A DNA stretch of 64,000 nucleotides, taken from the IMG/VR virus record IMGVR_UViG_3300029993_000005, positions 124,001 to 188,000 of that record. One strand, 5' to 3'. The DNA comes from a virus. Position numbers and translations under genes: made by a program. The number at the start of each line of letters is the position of its first letter. Within the stretch, counting starts at the first letter, position 1. Shown here piece after piece: positions 523 through 7,575 of this stretch. Under the pieces are notes generated by a model. It saw only the letters and a list, made by a program, of their open reading frames with translations, was not told where the DNA came from and did no database searches.

Positions 523-2133
523 ATGAGTACCAAGCCAGAGGCTTATGCGCGTGATCTAACCTGTGTCTATTGTGGTGGATCCTTGCCGGAAACTCATTCA
601 GCCTATTCTAAGTTGAGCAAGTACACCAAGGTAAAGACTGGTAACAAGTTGGCATTTTGTTGTTTGAGTCATGCTACGTTGTTCAACAATGCAAAGCGAA
701 CTCCTGAACAATTAGCCGATATTGGTGCAAAGACAAGTGCTGCACGTAGCAAACCAATACCAGCACACGATCTAAAATGTAATCATTGCGGCACCCCTAT
801 ACATCTAGGTCACAAAGCCTACAAAACAATAGGTGCCTATAACAAAGCAAAGGCTGGATTAATCAACGTCTTTTGCAGTCTTAATCATGCTCAGCTTTAT
901 ATCAATGAGCATCGTACCCACCAACAGAAACTCAAACGTAGGTCCACCATTTCTACTGGCTGTGTACAAAATGATAGTTCTAGCCAACGCCATGAGACAA
1001 TGAAGAACCGGGGTTCTTATAACCAGAGCAAGCCTGAACTAAGAATTTTTCATAAGCTGCGTCGAGTATTGCCGAACTTAGAATATCAGTATAGGAAGCG
1101 TGAGGGCTATCCCTATGCCGCTGATTTTTACGACCCCGACTCAGATACTATATTTGAGTATCAGGGCTTCATGACGCACGGTGGTGCTCCCTATGACTCT
1201 CAATCGTCCGAACATGCGTTAAGGGTCAAGCAGTTAAAACTCAGGGCCAAGACCGATAAATGGCTTGCTAAATTAACCTTAAAGATATGGACTAGTAGCG
1301 ATCCGCAGAAACGAGCGGCTATTCGTAAATCCAATATCAACTTTGTTGAATGGTTTACTGAGGAACAGTTTGAGACCTGGTATTCGACATTCCTTGCTCA
1401 ACACCTTGGCTCCGATAAATCAAAAGGACTGGCCTACAAATTTGGATCTCAAGTACTGTGTGCTTACGACGAGCTATTACGTGCCCGCCTATTGAATAAG
1501 TACCCTGATCTTATAACATTCTATCCCTGGGAAGACGTCAACAAGGTGGCTAAACTTCTGCTACCAAAAGACGTAATGTACGCTCGTAAATTAGAGGTGT
1601 GCGTAATACCCAACGATATAGCTGATCAATTCTGTGCCAAATATCACGTGCAGGGTAAATGTCGGGGAACTACTCTATCTATAGCTTTGGTTCAAGGACA
1701 TAGAATAATTGGGGCCATGACCTTTGGGACCCCTCGGTATAACAAGAATTTCGACTATGAATTATTACGCTTGTGTTTCAGCTCAGCCATAGTCGGCGGG
1801 TCCTCTAGAATGTGGAAACTCGCAGTCTCCAAATTAGGCAACCCTTCAGTAATATCCTATTGTGATCTCTCCAAATTTAACGGTAACGTTTATAGACAAT
1901 TAGGTTTCAAGCTCAAGAGAACCCCAATCCCAGGTCTTCATTGGTATAACCCGCTAAATGGACGCCATGTAACTGATAACCTATTACGTCAACGAGGATT
2001 TGATCAACTCGTGGGTTCTAAAATAAATACTGTCTATGGAAAAGGCACTAATAACGCTGAGCTCATGACCAGTCACGGATTTATACCTGTATATGATGAG
2101 GGGCAGGCTACCTTTATCTATAACCCAATTTAG
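523..2133 (+). CDS. Free-standing homing endonuclease, Vsr-like nuclease with Hef-like C-terminus
   Basis: A 536-aa protein. Two treble-clef or zinc-ribbon-like units stand at the N-terminus (CVYC...FCCLSH near residues 14-50 and CNHC...FCSLNH near 86-125). A Vsr-like/EDxHD nuclease core follows (AADFYDPDSDTIFEYQG, then THG, YD and TLKIWT, about residues 200-260). The C-terminal ~190 residues match the Hef-like domain of phage homing endonucleases (FCAKYHVQGKCRG, MTFGTPRYNK, YELLRLCFSS, VISYCDLSKFNG). It is clearly paralogous to the endonuclease at 3603-5564. It fits between two genes that both have normal ends, so it is free-standing. It probably cuts an allele of a nearby gene lacking the element; this is inference. 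Confidence 0.85.
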   Translation: MSTKPEAYARDLTCVYCGGSLPETHSAYSKLSKYTKVKTGNKLAFCCLSHATLFNNAKRTPEQLADIGAKTSAARSKPIPAHDLKCNHCGTPIHLGHKAYKTIGAYNKAKAGLINVFCSLNHAQLYINEHRTHQQKLKRRSTISTGCVQNDSSSQRHETMKNRGSYNQSKPELRIFHKLRRVLPNLEYQYRKREGYPYAADFYDPDSDTIFEYQGFMTHGGAPYDSQSSEHALRVKQLKLRAKTDKWLAKLTLKIWTSSDPQKRAAIRKSNINFVEWFTEEQFETWYSTFLAQHLGSDKSKGLAYKFGSQVLCAYDELLRARLLNKYPDLITFYPWEDVNKVAKLLLPKDVMYARKLEVCVIPNDIADQFCAKYHVQGKCRGTTLSIALVQGHRIIGAMTFGTPRYNKNFDYELLRLCFSSAIVGGSSRMWKLAVSKLGNPSVISYCDLSKFNGNVYRQLGFKLKRTPIPGLHWYNPLNGRHVTDNLLRQRGFDQLVGSKINTVYGKGTNNAELMTSHGFIPVYDEGQATFIYNPI

Positions 2134-2143
2134 TAGGACTACT

Positions 2144-3628
2144 ATGTTCACAAATAATAGATTGTTGGGGGTCAATGGAAAGACCATCAACATGAGTCAT
2201 CAGGTGTTTGGTAATAACGGAGCCTCTGTAGCCATGCGTAGTTATAAAGGCCGTGATGATGGCTCAAAAGTAAAGTTGAGTGCCAATGTAGTGGGGAGTA
2301 GTGGCGGTGGTGGAGCCTCTATGTCTGTTAATGGTTTCTGGCAATCTAATTACCAGTACTACATGACAGGGATTATCCCGGCAGACCCCCATCTTATTGA
2401 TACCTCAACGTTAGCTCTGTTCTACAGAGATATTTATATGTTCGATAGTGTCGGCGGGTCAGTAGTTGACATATTGTCGCATTTCCCATTCTCCAGTTGG
2501 GAACTCAGAGGCCTGGATGCTCAAGATTTAAAACCTTTCAATGACGCATTAGAAAGGTTGAATATTCAGACGATGCTACCCTTAATCAGCACCGCCCATT
2601 TAACTGATGGTTTCTTTTGTGGCTCCTTAGTATTCGATCCTAAGTCCAAACAGTTTATAGACACGATGTTGCACGATGCCTTGTCCTGTGCAGTTATTCC
2701 CTCACCGTTCTTTGGAATTGACCCTACGATTAATGTGCGGGTTGGCCAAGCAACACAGCAGTTCATGCACGATACATCAGAATACGCACGTCGATATCTG
2801 CAGCAAATGCCTCATCAGTTTGTCGACATGTTGAAAAGCGGTGCATTTACATTAGATCCAGTGACCACGATGTTTATTCCACGTCGATCCACAACGGATA
2901 GAGCTTATACATCGTTTCTACACCGTATTCTTCCGATGTATTTGATTGAGAAGACTCTGTTTCGTGGAACCTTAGTTGAGACTCAAAGACGTCAACGGGC
3001 AATGACACATTTGACGGCCGGTGACGATACATGGACTCCTACATCAGAAGAATTGAATCAATTGGTACAGTCTTTTCAACAGGCTGAATATGATCCTTTA
3101 GGTGGTTGGATATCTACACGTAACGCAGTGCAAGCAGTTGATCTCAGGCCTGGCGGAGATTTTTTTAAGTTTTCTGATATGGCTGATATATTTGTTCCCT
3201 ATAAGTTAAGGGCTTTAGGTGCCAGTGAATCATTCATGAGTCAGGAAGCCTGTTTGATAGGCTCTACCCAAATTAAACTTCAGAATGGTACGACCACGAG
3301 TATAGAGAGCCTAAGTCCTATCCATGGTCTAGCACCTCATGAACTAAAGAAAGGTCAGTGGTTTCCTCTAAATTTAGAACTACCCAATCGAATTTCGAAT
3401 TCTGCTAAAACTGAAGCTTGGTCATATCAAGGTTATAGGGAAACTTTTACGGTAACCACGGAAGATGGTAAACAAGTCACAGGGACTGAAAATCATCCAT
3501 TTTTTGTTTTATGTGAAGACGGAACTACTAAATGGAAACGTCTAGACGAGCTAAAAGAAGGTGATTTAATTGCGGTAGACGAAGAAGAACAGGAAGTTAA
3601 TAATGCCCAGACCACCGTCAGCAGCTAG
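2144..3628 (+). CDS. Portal protein, N-terminal part fused to split-intein N-half
   Basis: The ATG at 2144 follows the upstream stop by 10 bases and has AGGA just ahead. The first 369 residues are an N-extein that reads like a phage portal protein (MFDSVGGSVVDILSHFPFSSW near the N-terminus, a long alpha/beta body, then FKFSDMADIFVPYKLRALG and ESFMSQEA). The reading then switches at TGT 3251 into an intein N-terminal half of 125 residues that ends at a stop, so the portal is incomplete here. The rest of the portal is encoded at 5564-6469. The portal is the dodecameric channel through which DNA enters the head. The joined protein would be 369 + 262 = 631 residues. Portal identity rests on protein features and neighbourhood. 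Confidence 0.85.
   Translation: MFTNNRLLGVNGKTINMSHQVFGNNGASVAMRSYKGRDDGSKVKLSANVVGSSGGGGASMSVNGFWQSNYQYYMTGIIPADPHLIDTSTLALFYRDIYMFDSVGGSVVDILSHFPFSSWELRGLDAQDLKPFNDALERLNIQTMLPLISTAHLTDGFFCGSLVFDPKSKQFIDTMLHDALSCAVIPSPFFGIDPTINVRVGQATQQFMHDTSEYARRYLQQMPHQFVDMLKSGAFTLDPVTTMFIPRRSTTDRAYTSFLHRILPMYLIEKTLFRGTLVETQRRQRAMTHLTAGDDTWTPTSEELNQLVQSFQQAEYDPLGGWISTRNAVQAVDLRPGGDFFKFSDMADIFVPYKLRALGASESFMSQEACLIGSTQIKLQNGTTTSIESLSPIHGLAPHELKKGQWFPLNLELPNRISNSAKTEAWSYQGYRETFTVTTEDGKQVTGTENHPFFVLCEDGTTKWKRLDELKEGDLIAVDEEEQEVNNAQTTVSS
3251..3625 (+). other. Split intein N-half (IntN) in the portal gene
   Basis: The segment starts at Cys1 in block A (CLIGSTQIKLQNG) and contains block B with the T-x-x-H motif (GTENHPFFVL) and an N4-like block (WKRLDELKEGDLIAV). 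It finishes with a very acidic tail (DEEEQEV) and a stop codon, with no endonuclease or C-terminal splicing block in the same frame. These are the elements of the HINT fold of an intein N-half. The partner half is at 5564-5680. Confidence 0.9.
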
Positions 3629-5564
3629 AATAAAAACTTTAAAATGTTCTTACTGCAATGAAATCATTTCAGAGACTCACGAAATATATAAGACTAGACG
3701 GGACTACGATGAAGCTACAGCTGGACTACGCACTGTGTTTTGCTGTAAAGGGCATAGTGTGTCTTATCGCCATGATAATTTAAGCCCGGAAGATAAATTT
3801 GCATATCATGAAAAGATAGCGACGTCCCGTAAAAATCGTAGTCCTGAAGAGAAACATTTGTCAGGGACTAAACTTAGAGACACCAAAGCTAATTTCTCGG
3901 AGGAGAAAAAAGCAGATATTCGAAGTAGAATCCAGGCAACGGCTAAAGCTAATGATTCCTATGCAAAGGCTGCATTGAAACGTGAGATCACCCTAATTGA
4001 GACTCATGGTCTGGACTACGGCAAGAAACGTCAGGTCAAAGCCCGAGAGACTATGCTGAGGGAGCATGGAATTCCATGCTCCCTAGTTAGCGGTAGTGTT
4101 TTTAGGGCCAAAGCTGAGGCTACAAATGTGGAACTTTATGGTTTTCATAACGCTACAATGAACCCACAAATTGCAGCGAAAACCGTAGCTACTTATACTG
4201 AACGTCATGGCGGTATGGGAAGAGCAAGTCCTAGCGCTAATGCTGAGTATAAGAAAACCATGATAAAAGAATATGGTACTGATCAACCAATGCAAGTTAA
4301 AGAGTTTGTAGACAAGGCTAGGGAAAAGTTTAGGCAAATAGGGCGTCTAAAGTCCAACGCTACTAAAATAAAAAATAATACGACGCCTAAAGAGGTTGCT
4401 TGGAAAGGCCATGCAACTAAAAAACTTAATGGCACGTACACAACTAATAAACAAGAGCAATACATCCTCCACTGTCTTAGATCTTTACTGGGGTGTCAGG
4501 TAGAATACTTGTATAGAGACCACCCGGATTACCCATGGGAAGCTGATTTCTATGATCCCGACTCAGATACTATATTTGAATACCAGGGTTACTTTACACA
4601 TGGTGACGAAGCTTATGACAAAAACAATAAACAGCATAAGCTAAAAGTTGCTGACTTAAGTACAAAAGAAGGCTGGGCTCCAGCTCTGACATTGAAAATA
4701 TGGACTAAACTAGATCCGTTAAAAAGAAAAACTGCTAAAAACAAAAACCTATCTTTTGTAGAGTGGTTTAATATCGAGCAATTTCATGTTTGGTTCTATA
4801 CTCAAATAGCCAAACTGTTTAACGCTAAACATAGCAGGGTCAAGAGTGGATGGTTTAAATTAGCTCCTGACTATTATTTAGCATCCCACTGTGCATTAGC
4901 TAACGTTAGACTTCCGAAAGGTAGAATTATTGTATTTTACCCATGGGACGATTTGAAAAAGCTTTCTCTTATAATTTCGAAAGAAAAAGAAATAATTTAT
5001 GCTAGAAAAACTAAAATATCAATCATAACCAAAGAAACAGCGGATAAATTCTGTGAGAAATATCATATGCAGGGATCCTGCCGAGGAACCGATTTAGCTT
5101 TAGGACTTTATGTTACAACAGCAGAAAATAATAATCGACTAGTTGGAGTCATGACATTTGGGAATCCTCGTTATAACAAGAAATTTGATTATGAACTATT
5201 ACGTTTATGTTTTTCTTCTTTAGTTGTTGGTGGCTCTCAAAAATTGTGGTCCGCAGCTAATAAGTATTTAACAGGTTCAGTAATAAGCTATTGTGATTTA
5301 TCCAAATTTTCTGGGGCTATCTACACTAAATTAGGATTTATCCAGAAAAATAAACCCAAATCTTCAATTGTTTGGTACAACCCGGAATCAGGAATTCGCA
5401 TCACGGATAACCTATTGCGCCAACGAGGATTCGATCAATTAATTGGTAAAAAATTGGGAATCATATATGGCAAGGGTGAATCTAATAATGCACTTATGAA
5501 AAAATATGGTTTTATTCCTGTTCAAGACCAAGGGCAGTCCGTGTACATTACGGAGTTAAAATAA
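3603..5564 (+). CDS. Homing endonuclease inside the fractured portal gene
   Basis: A 653-aa protein. It has one N-terminal Cys unit (CSYC...FCCKGH, residues 14-50), a long basic linker rich in Lys and Glu, and a Vsr-like nuclease core (EADFYDPDSDTIFEYQG, FTHG, YD, TLKIWTKLD). The C-terminus is Hef-like (KYHMQGSCRG, VMTFGNPRYNKKFDYELLRL, ISYCDLSKFSG, DNLLRQRGFDQLIG). It starts 26 bases before the IntN stop and its TAA overlaps the ATG of the IntC frame (TAATG), so translation of the three frames is coupled. This is the arrangement known as a fractured gene, seen in metagenomic phage DNA with split inteins. Its DNA looks richer in A and T than the portal frames on either side. Confidence 0.9.
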   Translation: MPRPPSAARIKTLKCSYCNEIISETHEIYKTRRDYDEATAGLRTVFCCKGHSVSYRHDNLSPEDKFAYHEKIATSRKNRSPEEKHLSGTKLRDTKANFSEEKKADIRSRIQATAKANDSYAKAALKREITLIETHGLDYGKKRQVKARETMLREHGIPCSLVSGSVFRAKAEATNVELYGFHNATMNPQIAAKTVATYTERHGGMGRASPSANAEYKKTMIKEYGTDQPMQVKEFVDKAREKFRQIGRLKSNATKIKNNTTPKEVAWKGHATKKLNGTYTTNKQEQYILHCLRSLLGCQVEYLYRDHPDYPWEADFYDPDSDTIFEYQGYFTHGDEAYDKNNKQHKLKVADLSTKEGWAPALTLKIWTKLDPLKRKTAKNKNLSFVEWFNIEQFHVWFYTQIAKLFNAKHSRVKSGWFKLAPDYYLASHCALANVRLPKGRIIVFYPWDDLKKLSLIISKEKEIIYARKTKISIITKETADKFCEKYHMQGSCRGTDLALGLYVTTAENNNRLVGVMTFGNPRYNKKFDYELLRLCFSSLVVGGSQKLWSAANKYLTGSVISYCDLSKFSGAIYTKLGFIQKNKPKSSIVWYNPESGIRITDNLLRQRGFDQLIGKKLGIIYGKGESNNALMKKYGFIPVQDQGQSVYITELK

Positions 5565-5680
5565 TGAAGTTTGTAAAAATAGTTTCAATTGAGGCCTCTG
5601 GTAAAAACCATGTATATGATATAGCCATGGCTAAAGACGAGGATCCCTCATTTATTGCAAATGGTATTATTGTGCATAAT
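5564..5680 (+). other. Split intein C-half (IntC)
   Basis: A 39-residue C-half with a basic start (MKFVKIVSIEASGKNH), block F (VYDIAMAKDEDPSF) and block G ending in His-Asn before Thr+1 (ANGIIVHN|T). The His-Asn pair and a +1 Thr are the residues needed for Asn cyclization and transesterification. Its length is typical of a natural split-intein C-half. Confidence 0.9.
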
Positions 5681-6469
5681 ACCTATGCCAGCCAAGAAGC
5701 GGGGTATAGCCTATTCTTGGAAACAACTAATAGCTATCGGACAGACTTAACCGAACGTATTTTCAACTCAAAATTATTTCCGTTGATAGCCGTTGTTAAT
5801 AATCTGTATAAAGATCCTAGTAAAGGTAGAGCCAAGGGTGGTCAGCTACTTGATTTTTTGTTTAACAGAAACAATCGTAACAACTTGAAAATGCCACAAC
5901 TTCACTGGCATAAGGAGTTGGAAGCCAAGGGTGAAGACAACATGGCTGAACTCCTGGAATTAGCCTCTGACAAGGGTGTACCTATTCCATTGAAGATGTG
6001 GATGGCTGCTTCCAAAATTGATCCAGAATCATTGTTACGTGACCTATCTGAGGACCAAGCCTTACGCGATAAATTAGCTCAGTACACGGGTAAGGACACT
6101 AGCCATGAGGGTGAGGACGATCATGAGTTCTCTGATGAAGACGATAACGCGCATGATGGTCGGGGTGTAGACGTCAGAGGCTCGGTTCCAGGTGAACGTT
6201 TAACTACTCAACGCCTAAGTCAAATGATTCAAAGTCCACGTGTTCCGCTATTAGCCCGCGAGTTTGGGGACTCTGGTGACTCATGGACCTTCACAAAGAC
6301 GGGTAAGGTCAAACATGTTCCTTCAATAGCTAAGGCTGACCGTAATGCTAAGGCCAATGACACGATATTGAAAATTGCCAAACAGGCGGACAGGGATCCT
6401 CATTATCGTGAAGAATTAAAGAAAAGGAATCAGGCCAAACTCGGGCGTACAAAAGTTAAAGACATGTAA
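5564..6469 (+). CDS. Split-intein C-half fused to portal protein, C-terminal part
   Basis: A 301-aa protein. Residues 1-39 are an intein C-half (blocks F and G: HVYDIAM, then DPSFIANGIIVHN) and residues 40-301 are the C-extein, beginning with Thr at the +1 nucleophile position (TYASQEAGYSLFLE). The extein continues the portal: YRTDLTERIFNSKLFPL, then helices and an acidic segment (GEDDHEFSDEDDN). Joining ...SFMSQEA to TYASQEAG... restores an uninterrupted portal reading. The ATG overlaps the endonuclease stop. The protein needs IntN in trans to become a functional portal. Confidence 0.87.
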   Translation: MKFVKIVSIEASGKNHVYDIAMAKDEDPSFIANGIIVHNTYASQEAGYSLFLETTNSYRTDLTERIFNSKLFPLIAVVNNLYKDPSKGRAKGGQLLDFLFNRNNRNNLKMPQLHWHKELEAKGEDNMAELLELASDKGVPIPLKMWMAASKIDPESLLRDLSEDQALRDKLAQYTGKDTSHEGEDDHEFSDEDDNAHDGRGVDVRGSVPGERLTTQRLSQMIQSPRVPLLAREFGDSGDSWTFTKTGKVKHVPSIAKADRNAKANDTILKIAKQADRDPHYREELKKRNQAKLGRTKVKDM

Positions 6470-6477
6470 GGACCACT

Positions 6478-6735
6478 ATGTATTCGTTCCTAGTAAAGGA
6501 AGTTCCTGTGTCAGTAAGTCTTGAACCAGAATACCAGTGGTTTACCTATCACGGACGTTCACCCGTTCTAATTAAGTTCCAAGGTAAGTCACTGGCTATT
6601 GGAAAGGGAAAACGTTTTGGTGTTCGGCCCTCGACTTCGGGCACTGAAATTCGTTTAGTTTTTCCCGAGGATAAGTCAAAGGTATTAACCATTAGCAGAG
6701 AACAGGCTGAAAGTTTAGCCAAAGGAGTGAAGTAA
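6478..6735 (+). CDS. Small protein of unknown function
   Basis: An 85-aa protein, rich in beta-type residues (WFTYHGRSPVLIKFQGKSLAIG), with no motif I can name. The start is supported by AAGGA just upstream (TAAGGACCACTATG), the same spacing style as the portal start. Its stop overlaps the next ATG (TAATG), so it is co-translated with the following gene. It sits immediately after the portal, where head-assembly genes are common, but nothing in the sequence proves such a role. Confidence 0.75.
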   Translation: MYSFLVKEVPVSVSLEPEYQWFTYHGRSPVLIKFQGKSLAIGKGKRFGVRPSTSGTEIRLVFPEDKSKVLTISREQAESLAKGVK

Positions 6736-7575
6736 TGGACACGCATTCTTCAGAAACCGGGGTCGACATAGAACCCGATAAAGAGTCCACTATTAAATAC
6801 TACGGTATTTTATTTGACGACTATACACCTCCAGTCGAGGGTCAAATTCTCAGGGACTGCTTAGCTCTGCAGAACATTGCGGGGCACTCAGTTGATGAAT
6901 TAGTTATTGTTTGTGAAAGTGAGGCCCCCGATTCTTTACTAAAAGCCTTGGGCTTACGCAGAGTAGGGGACCCATCTTTAACCGATGACTGGATTGTTTA
7001 TCGCACTCAAGAAGAGTGGCCCGAACCTCCTGATAATGCCACAACAGTAACGCAAAGAGACTTGTGGGTACAGCTAGGAAAAGAGAATCTGACGGTCATG
7101 GACGAGCAACATACTAATGGCTACTATTTGCCGCCTTTTTACCTGGGGCCGCTTAGCAGTAATGTTAAGTGATAAGGTTTTGAATTGCTGGAAACCCCTT
7201 AGAGCTTCTTGAACCACAACGCGTAACCACCAAATGGTTAGATGGTTAGATCGTGAAGGTTTGAAAATCAAGAAGATTGGGCAATCAGCAGCGAAGCTCG
7301 AAAGAGAACGTTCAACGACTAGGCCGTAAGGCCGTACCTACCAAGTGGTGGGGAAGTGGAGCCCTCCTAGAAATTTAGGATGAAGATATAGTCTGAACAT
7401 CTGGTGAAAGCCAGAGCAGCTACTCGATGGTAAGACGAGCAAGCGCCTTTAGCCTAACGAGCTGAGGGGAACATAAATGCAAGGAAGACTTAGTCCAGAT
7501 ACGATTAGTTTGTTACGTCCGGCACCAAATGGCTACGTTCCAACTGACCCCTCTCTTATATTGATTTGGTCCTAA
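6735..7575 (+). CDS. Unknown protein; gene interrupted near its 3' end by a group I intron
   Basis: Exon 1 runs from 6735 to 7157 or 7166 and encodes an acidic protein with no recognised family (DDYTPPVEGQILRDCLALQN, WIVYRTQEEWPEPPDNATT). Unspliced mRNA meets TGA at 7170-7172, giving a 145-aa product. If the intron ending at 7479 is removed, translation continues in the same frame into exon 2 (7480-7575) and adds 31 residues (QGRLSPDTISLLRPAPNGY and on to IWS, then TAA). That gives a protein of 172 or 175 residues depending on which 5' splice site is used; both candidates fall on codon boundaries. The gene is coupled to the preceding one and precedes a terminator. Function unknown. Confidence 0.65.
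7167..7479 (+). ncRNA. Group I self-splicing intron without an ORF
   Basis: Core elements can be read off. P4 is GCTG/CAGC, around GGAAA on the 5' side and CAAT on the 3' side. P5 is CCC/GGG, extended by CTTCTTGA/TCAAGAAG. P7 is GTTCA(AC)GACTA near 7310-7321, paired with TAGTCTGAAC at 7389-7398. P7.1 is a GGCC-GTAA-GGCC hairpin. P8 is TCCTA/TAGGA. P9-type hairpins include CTGG/CCAG and CTCG/CGAG. The 3' end GGGGAACATAAATG closely resembles that of the T4 td intron. A P1-like hairpin at 7150-7171 (CGCTTAGC/GTTAAGTG) contains the exon end, so the 5' boundary may be 7158 instead of 7167. About 313 nt long, with no endonuclease inside. Resembles subgroup IA introns. Confidence 0.85.

Follow-up and report, generated by a model that had tools for sequence, protein, structure and literature searches.

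A portal gene in a metagenomic jumbo phage, kin of Burkholderia phage BcepSauron, very probably carries a mobile fractured-gene cassette, in which protein trans-splicing would join two separately encoded portal halves and an endonuclease encoded between them would home into portals that lack the insertion. The gene lies in a 64,000-nucleotide window (bases 124001-188000 of the 230,110-bp virus record IMGVR_UViG_3300029993_000005), which is the whole stretch of DNA analyzed here. The proposed cassette comprises the N-terminal half of a split intein (IntN) at the end of one frame, a free-standing EDxHD endonuclease gene, and the C-terminal half (IntC) at the start of a third frame, all inside the portal gene. 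The three plus-strand frames, 2144-3628, 3603-5564 and 5564-6469, were confirmed and break down as follows.

2144-3250, plus strand: portal N-extein, 369 residues, ending in ESFMSQEA (PHROG family phrog_16240, profile positions 27-377, E 2.9e-129; 66% identity to the BcepSauron portal).
3251-3628, plus strand: IntN, 125 residues, with Cys1 and block B TENH, its tail running into the start of the endonuclease gene (TIGR01445).
3603-5564, plus strand: putative EDxHD (Vsr-like) homing endonuclease, 653 amino acids (domain matches, family profile and PHROG).
5564-5680, plus strand: IntC, 39 residues, with block F NHVYDIAM and block G GIIVHN (TIGR01443; 72% identity to the IntC of a second cassette, L057, described below).
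5681-6469, plus strand: portal C-extein, 262 residues, beginning with the +1 Thr (phrog_16240, 377-638, E 4.6e-61; empty-site alignment).

A preliminary description of this DNA had read the locus as three frames with a Cys1 at 3251, a TxxH motif, a terminal HN and a +1 Thr, and every one of these elements was found in place. All class-1 intein residues are present (C1, TENH, the YD of block F, HN and +1 T), with the Cys1 codon at 3251-3253, the terminal Asn codon at 5678-5680 and the +1 Thr codon at 5681-5683. The NCBIfam models for the two halves, TIGR01445 and TIGR01443, score 33.2 bits (cut-off 24.5) and 26.5 bits (cut-off 15.6), respectively. The Pfam Intein_splicing model is covered by complementary halves, 37-99 in the N frame and 120-155 of 155 in the C frame, the latter alone scoring 19.8 bits, under the gathering cut-off of 35.8. 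The gap between the halves is the usual endonuclease position, i.e., the split is canonical. The IntN and endonuclease frames have 26 nt in common, the ATG of the C frame shares 1 nt with the endonuclease stop, and a Shine-Dalgarno-like sequence lies a few bases 5' of both internal ATGs; from these overlaps and ribosome-binding-site-like sequences, translational coupling of the three frames is plausible.

Portals are ring proteins through which DNA passes into the phage head. The predicted portal identity of the host gene draws on PHROG, RefSeq annotation and gene order, without a structural match. The N and C frames meet at position 377 of the PHROG profile, and the family in RefSeq consists of the portals of BcepSauron, Motura, PaBG and others, with terL directly upstream in most. 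PDB sequence searches matched no solved portal to the family, a Pfam search of 11 portals returned nothing, and comparison with T4 gp20 gave no match to the window portal family. An AlphaFold portal model built from an 11-sequence alignment had a predicted local distance difference test score (pLDDT) of 40 and was set aside.

The joined exteins come to 631 residues, in agreement with the earlier estimate of about 631. Relatives with unbroken portals encode them as single open reading frames (ORFs) (BcepSauron, Motura and IMG/VR relatives; n = 20, including eight more distant annotated phages). Aligned with these 20, the joined exteins cross the junction gap-free, A/T against A/S (the slash marks the break), without gain or loss of a residue. 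The junction sits inside the strongly conserved GISESFLSGDA-SY, among the most conserved motifs of the family in the same 20 portals. The counter-evidence named earlier, a homologous portal made as two ordinary proteins that lack intein blocks, was not found, and the unsplit relatives examined were all one ORF. In none of 50,697 annotated phage records did a portal match cover 80% or more of the N frame. SQEA is encoded on both sides of the insertion, at 3239-3250 (agtcaggaagcc) before it and at 5690-5701 (agccaagaagcg) after it; the two copies make an imperfect 12-nt repeat, for which the listed unbroken relatives show no counterpart.

A second, diverged cassette emerged from a scan based on the endonuclease alignment: in IMG/VR 3300013296_000018 (L057), the orthologous portal gene is the host and the three-part arrangement is the same.

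L057 4457-5950: portal N and IntN.
L057 5953-7386: endonuclease, with the homologous start at 6001.
L057 7383-8279: IntC and portal C.

The L057 break lies six residues (18 bp) downstream (ASFASAE/SAYS versus SQEA/TYASQEAGYS in the window), and its class-1 intein residues are all present (C1, TDNH, YD, HN and +1 Ser). Between the two cassettes, identity is 55% for IntN (over 111 residues), 72% for IntC, 65% for the exteins (portal identity is given as 70%) and 49% for the endonucleases (over 455 residues), the L057 enzyme being shorter. In every part, divergence falls mostly at third codon positions, and IntC shows this best (23/8/59% at the three positions versus 30/27/62% in IntN), a sign of codon-level constraint on both intein halves. 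The empty sites in 20 portals and this diverged second cassette are strong arguments for a mobile insertion of the fractured-gene type, and they support the initial proposal of a split intein with an endonuclease in the gap and a portal as host.

The preliminary description had recommended a search for other portal genes interrupted at SQEA/TYAS; the L057 insertion lies 18 bp downstream of that site, and IntN and IntC profile scans of viral sequences found no third portal case. Among the matches listed (40 of 69), IntN relatives in phage records fall in helicase, terminase, RecA and unnamed genes and in no portal, and the weak IntN relatives that were checked are cis inteins of the usual kind, located in terminase-like or other ORFs. 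Across 79 Hef-like loci, a crude regular-expression test, which divergent inteins could escape, found an intein half on each side only in contigs of the window phage and in the L057 contig. In the portal tree, the window groups with L057 and with L023, which is unsplit, and the clade is supported (97/93); with an unsplit member inside it, one gain followed by loss and a site shift is indistinguishable from two gains.

The endonuclease combines a Cys-rich N-terminal putative zinc finger, a DUF7487 match (residues 146-243), a nuclease domain (about 278-400) and a Mom/GNAT-like C-terminal region (about 460-650). PHROG homing endonuclease family 3339 matches its ORF with an E of 1.4e-35. A profile of 55 relatives matches the catalytic domain of I-Bth0305I (PDB 3R3P, E 8.6e-9), a Vsr-like EDxHD nuclease, and D315, E326, G329 and H333 are invariant across the 55 homologues; a PDB search with the window sequence alone gave no match. 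The original characterization of the enzyme as Vsr-like is borne out by this profile, and that as Hef-like by Campylobacter phage 'Hef' genes, which are related to it in the C-terminal region. The C-terminal part of the same profile matches a GNAT acetyltransferase (E 0.006). An AlphaFold model of residues 278-653 (pLDDT 84) has phage Mu Mom (8bv8, E 7e-8) as its best Foldseek match; among the matches listed, all were to the C-terminal domain and none to the nuclease part. The Mom-like domain possibly has a base-modifying or decayed DNA-binding role. Most relatives of the enzyme appear free-standing, and a scan of genome contigs for the endonuclease found no relative. Twice in the window, an EDxHD nuclease is fused to a C-terminal Mom/GNAT-like domain, encoded at about 4980-5561 and about 1540-2130.

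In the mechanism that we propose, the three frames would be translated separately from one region, and IntN and IntC would associate for class-1 protein trans-splicing, proceeding through a Cys1 acyl shift, transfer to the +1 Thr and Asn cyclisation. The product would be one scarless 631-residue portal made from two halves. The endonuclease, freed from the intein reading frame, would cut insertion-less portal alleles, whereupon the cassette would be copied in during co-infection; such homing would have spread it. Several points weigh against this scheme. Splicing and cleavage are predictions, and so is the endonuclease, which comes from a metagenome. Its Mom-like C-terminal domain falls outside the classical homing-endonuclease plan and is missing in the L057 endonuclease. 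Finally, only two lineages in the data searched carry the arrangement.

Trans-splicing might also serve as a timing step in head assembly, although we regard this as rather unlikely: the portal ring would nucleate only after the halves meet, and the splicing rate would set when and how many heads start, with two cassette entry sites 18 bp apart. Two insertion sites at that distance in orthologous portals are directly seen. Distinctly less probable is a dead or inefficient intein, whose unjoined halves would co-assemble, intein tails included, as a two-chain portal subunit. Split proteins presumably can complement each other unligated in some cases; however, the catalytic residues are all kept in both cassettes, the codon-level constraint extends to both intein halves, and the break would leave tails of 125 and 39 residues. 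Separate chains are unlikely to be tolerated at this break, because the portal motif that it interrupts is among the most conserved in the family.

Ribosomal frameshifting could instead generate one continuous intein-endonuclease precursor spliced in cis, an explanation to which we give very little weight. The frames do overlap or nearly abut, and IntN and IntC, counted from the window coordinates, happen to share one frame relative to 2144. Nevertheless, both internal frames start at an ATG of their own with ribosome-binding-site-like sequence, and L057 has a stop after IntN, the homologous endonuclease start (6001) about 50 nt further on and different frame relations. Removal of the interruption from RNA by a self-splicing intron is scarcely credible, since a group I intron does occur in another gene 0.7 kb downstream but Rfam intron models are unmatched within 2144-6469, and intein halves coded on both sides would be pointless if the RNA were spliced. 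The record is metagenomic, but an assembly chimera or sequencing artefact is already refuted in practice, because 7.6-13 kb of the locus is found in three other metagenome assemblies with 0 mismatches and L057 is a diverged homologue of the whole arrangement.

The fractured-gene cassette has known counterparts. Fractured genes, as reportedly described by Dassa and co-workers in 2009, consist of a broken host gene, split intein halves and a free-standing endonuclease gene in the gap; this endonuclease is said to be often Vsr-related (EDxHD), the setting mainly phage and the hosts DNA synthesis and repair enzymes. The window has the same three-part anatomy, whereas its host is a virion structural protein and its endonuclease adds a Mom-like C-terminal domain. 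The split site of GOS-TerL is reportedly atypical, in contrast to the canonical endonuclease position of the split in the window. Both are naturally split inteins in phage DNA-packaging genes, GOS-TerL being, where PMC7090010 cites it, a natural split intein in a large terminase gene. In the Pseudomonas jumbo phage MIJ3, PolB has a split intein, and a homing endonuclease ORF fills the gap (PMC6892783). Both are jumbo phage split inteins, but the MIJ3 host is PolB and its endonuclease is called HNH (PMC6892783); MIJ3_00181, a relative of the window endonuclease, is another MIJ3 homing endonuclease gene, not flanked by PolB. I-Bth0305I and the window enzyme have a nuclease core in common by family profile, yet the former is intron-encoded ('Mobile intron protein'), while the latter, whose gene separates two intein halves, has Cys-rich, DUF7487 and Mom-like regions as well.

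The novelty of the portal as host, raised in the preliminary description, holds in a narrower form. Cluster C1 mycobacteriophages have an intein in a gene annotated as portal (Kelley 2016, PMC5050341), and the portal is therefore not a new intein host as such; the comparison is by annotated host, and the term 'split intein' is absent from that paper. The literature searched, which misses most subscription papers, yielded no description of a portal with a split intein, and the portal appears to be new as host of a split intein whose gap holds a gene. Fractured genes are already known; this one stands out by its host protein, by the pair of sites and by the Mom-like extension. If splicing occurs, head formation would hinge on the ligation of an essential ring protein from two chains that are made apart; we found no report of such a dependence for any virion structural protein. 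Two cassettes 18 bp apart and many unbroken kin portals amount to a natural experiment on split-intein movement and site choice. For protein ligation, the two cassettes also supply candidate natural split inteins, each divided at the canonical position (125/39 and 111/39 residues).

The portal has a further endonuclease gene as its neighbor.

523-2133, plus strand: free-standing endonuclease paralogue, 536 amino acids (44% identity overall to the portal-gap endonuclease).

This paralogue, 49% identical to the portal-gap enzyme over residues 261-649 and bearing two Cys-rich N-terminal repeats, sits between an MmcB-like gene and the portal, with which it is associated by position. Relatives have the MmcB-like gene close upstream of the portal, and no endonuclease gene comes between the two. 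The paralogue was considered as a mobiliser of the cassette, with evidence neither for nor against. BcepSauron has a GIY-YIG-like ORF near the portal (L002:7151-7900, assigned by eye), and the portal neighborhood thus attracts endonuclease genes.

A group I intron at 7137-7479 of the window (Rfam RF00028, 81 bits at 7128-7416) interrupts the gene starting at 6735 and holds no ORF of note. Joining 7136 to 7480 restores NGYYLPP/QGRLSPDT, which is unbroken in L057 (9441-9932). In the related jumbo phages PhiXhv-12 and -16 of Xanthomonas (L077), an intein C-terminal-like match lies inside the annotated large terminase. A GyrB-like (topoisomerase) ORF at L048:1923-4946 (G000 about 38.4-41.4 kb, minus strand) contains two apparent mini-inteins, VSIG/C...N/THGIG and DPDPDG/P...N/CHINS, the second of which, starting with Pro, may be class-3-like.
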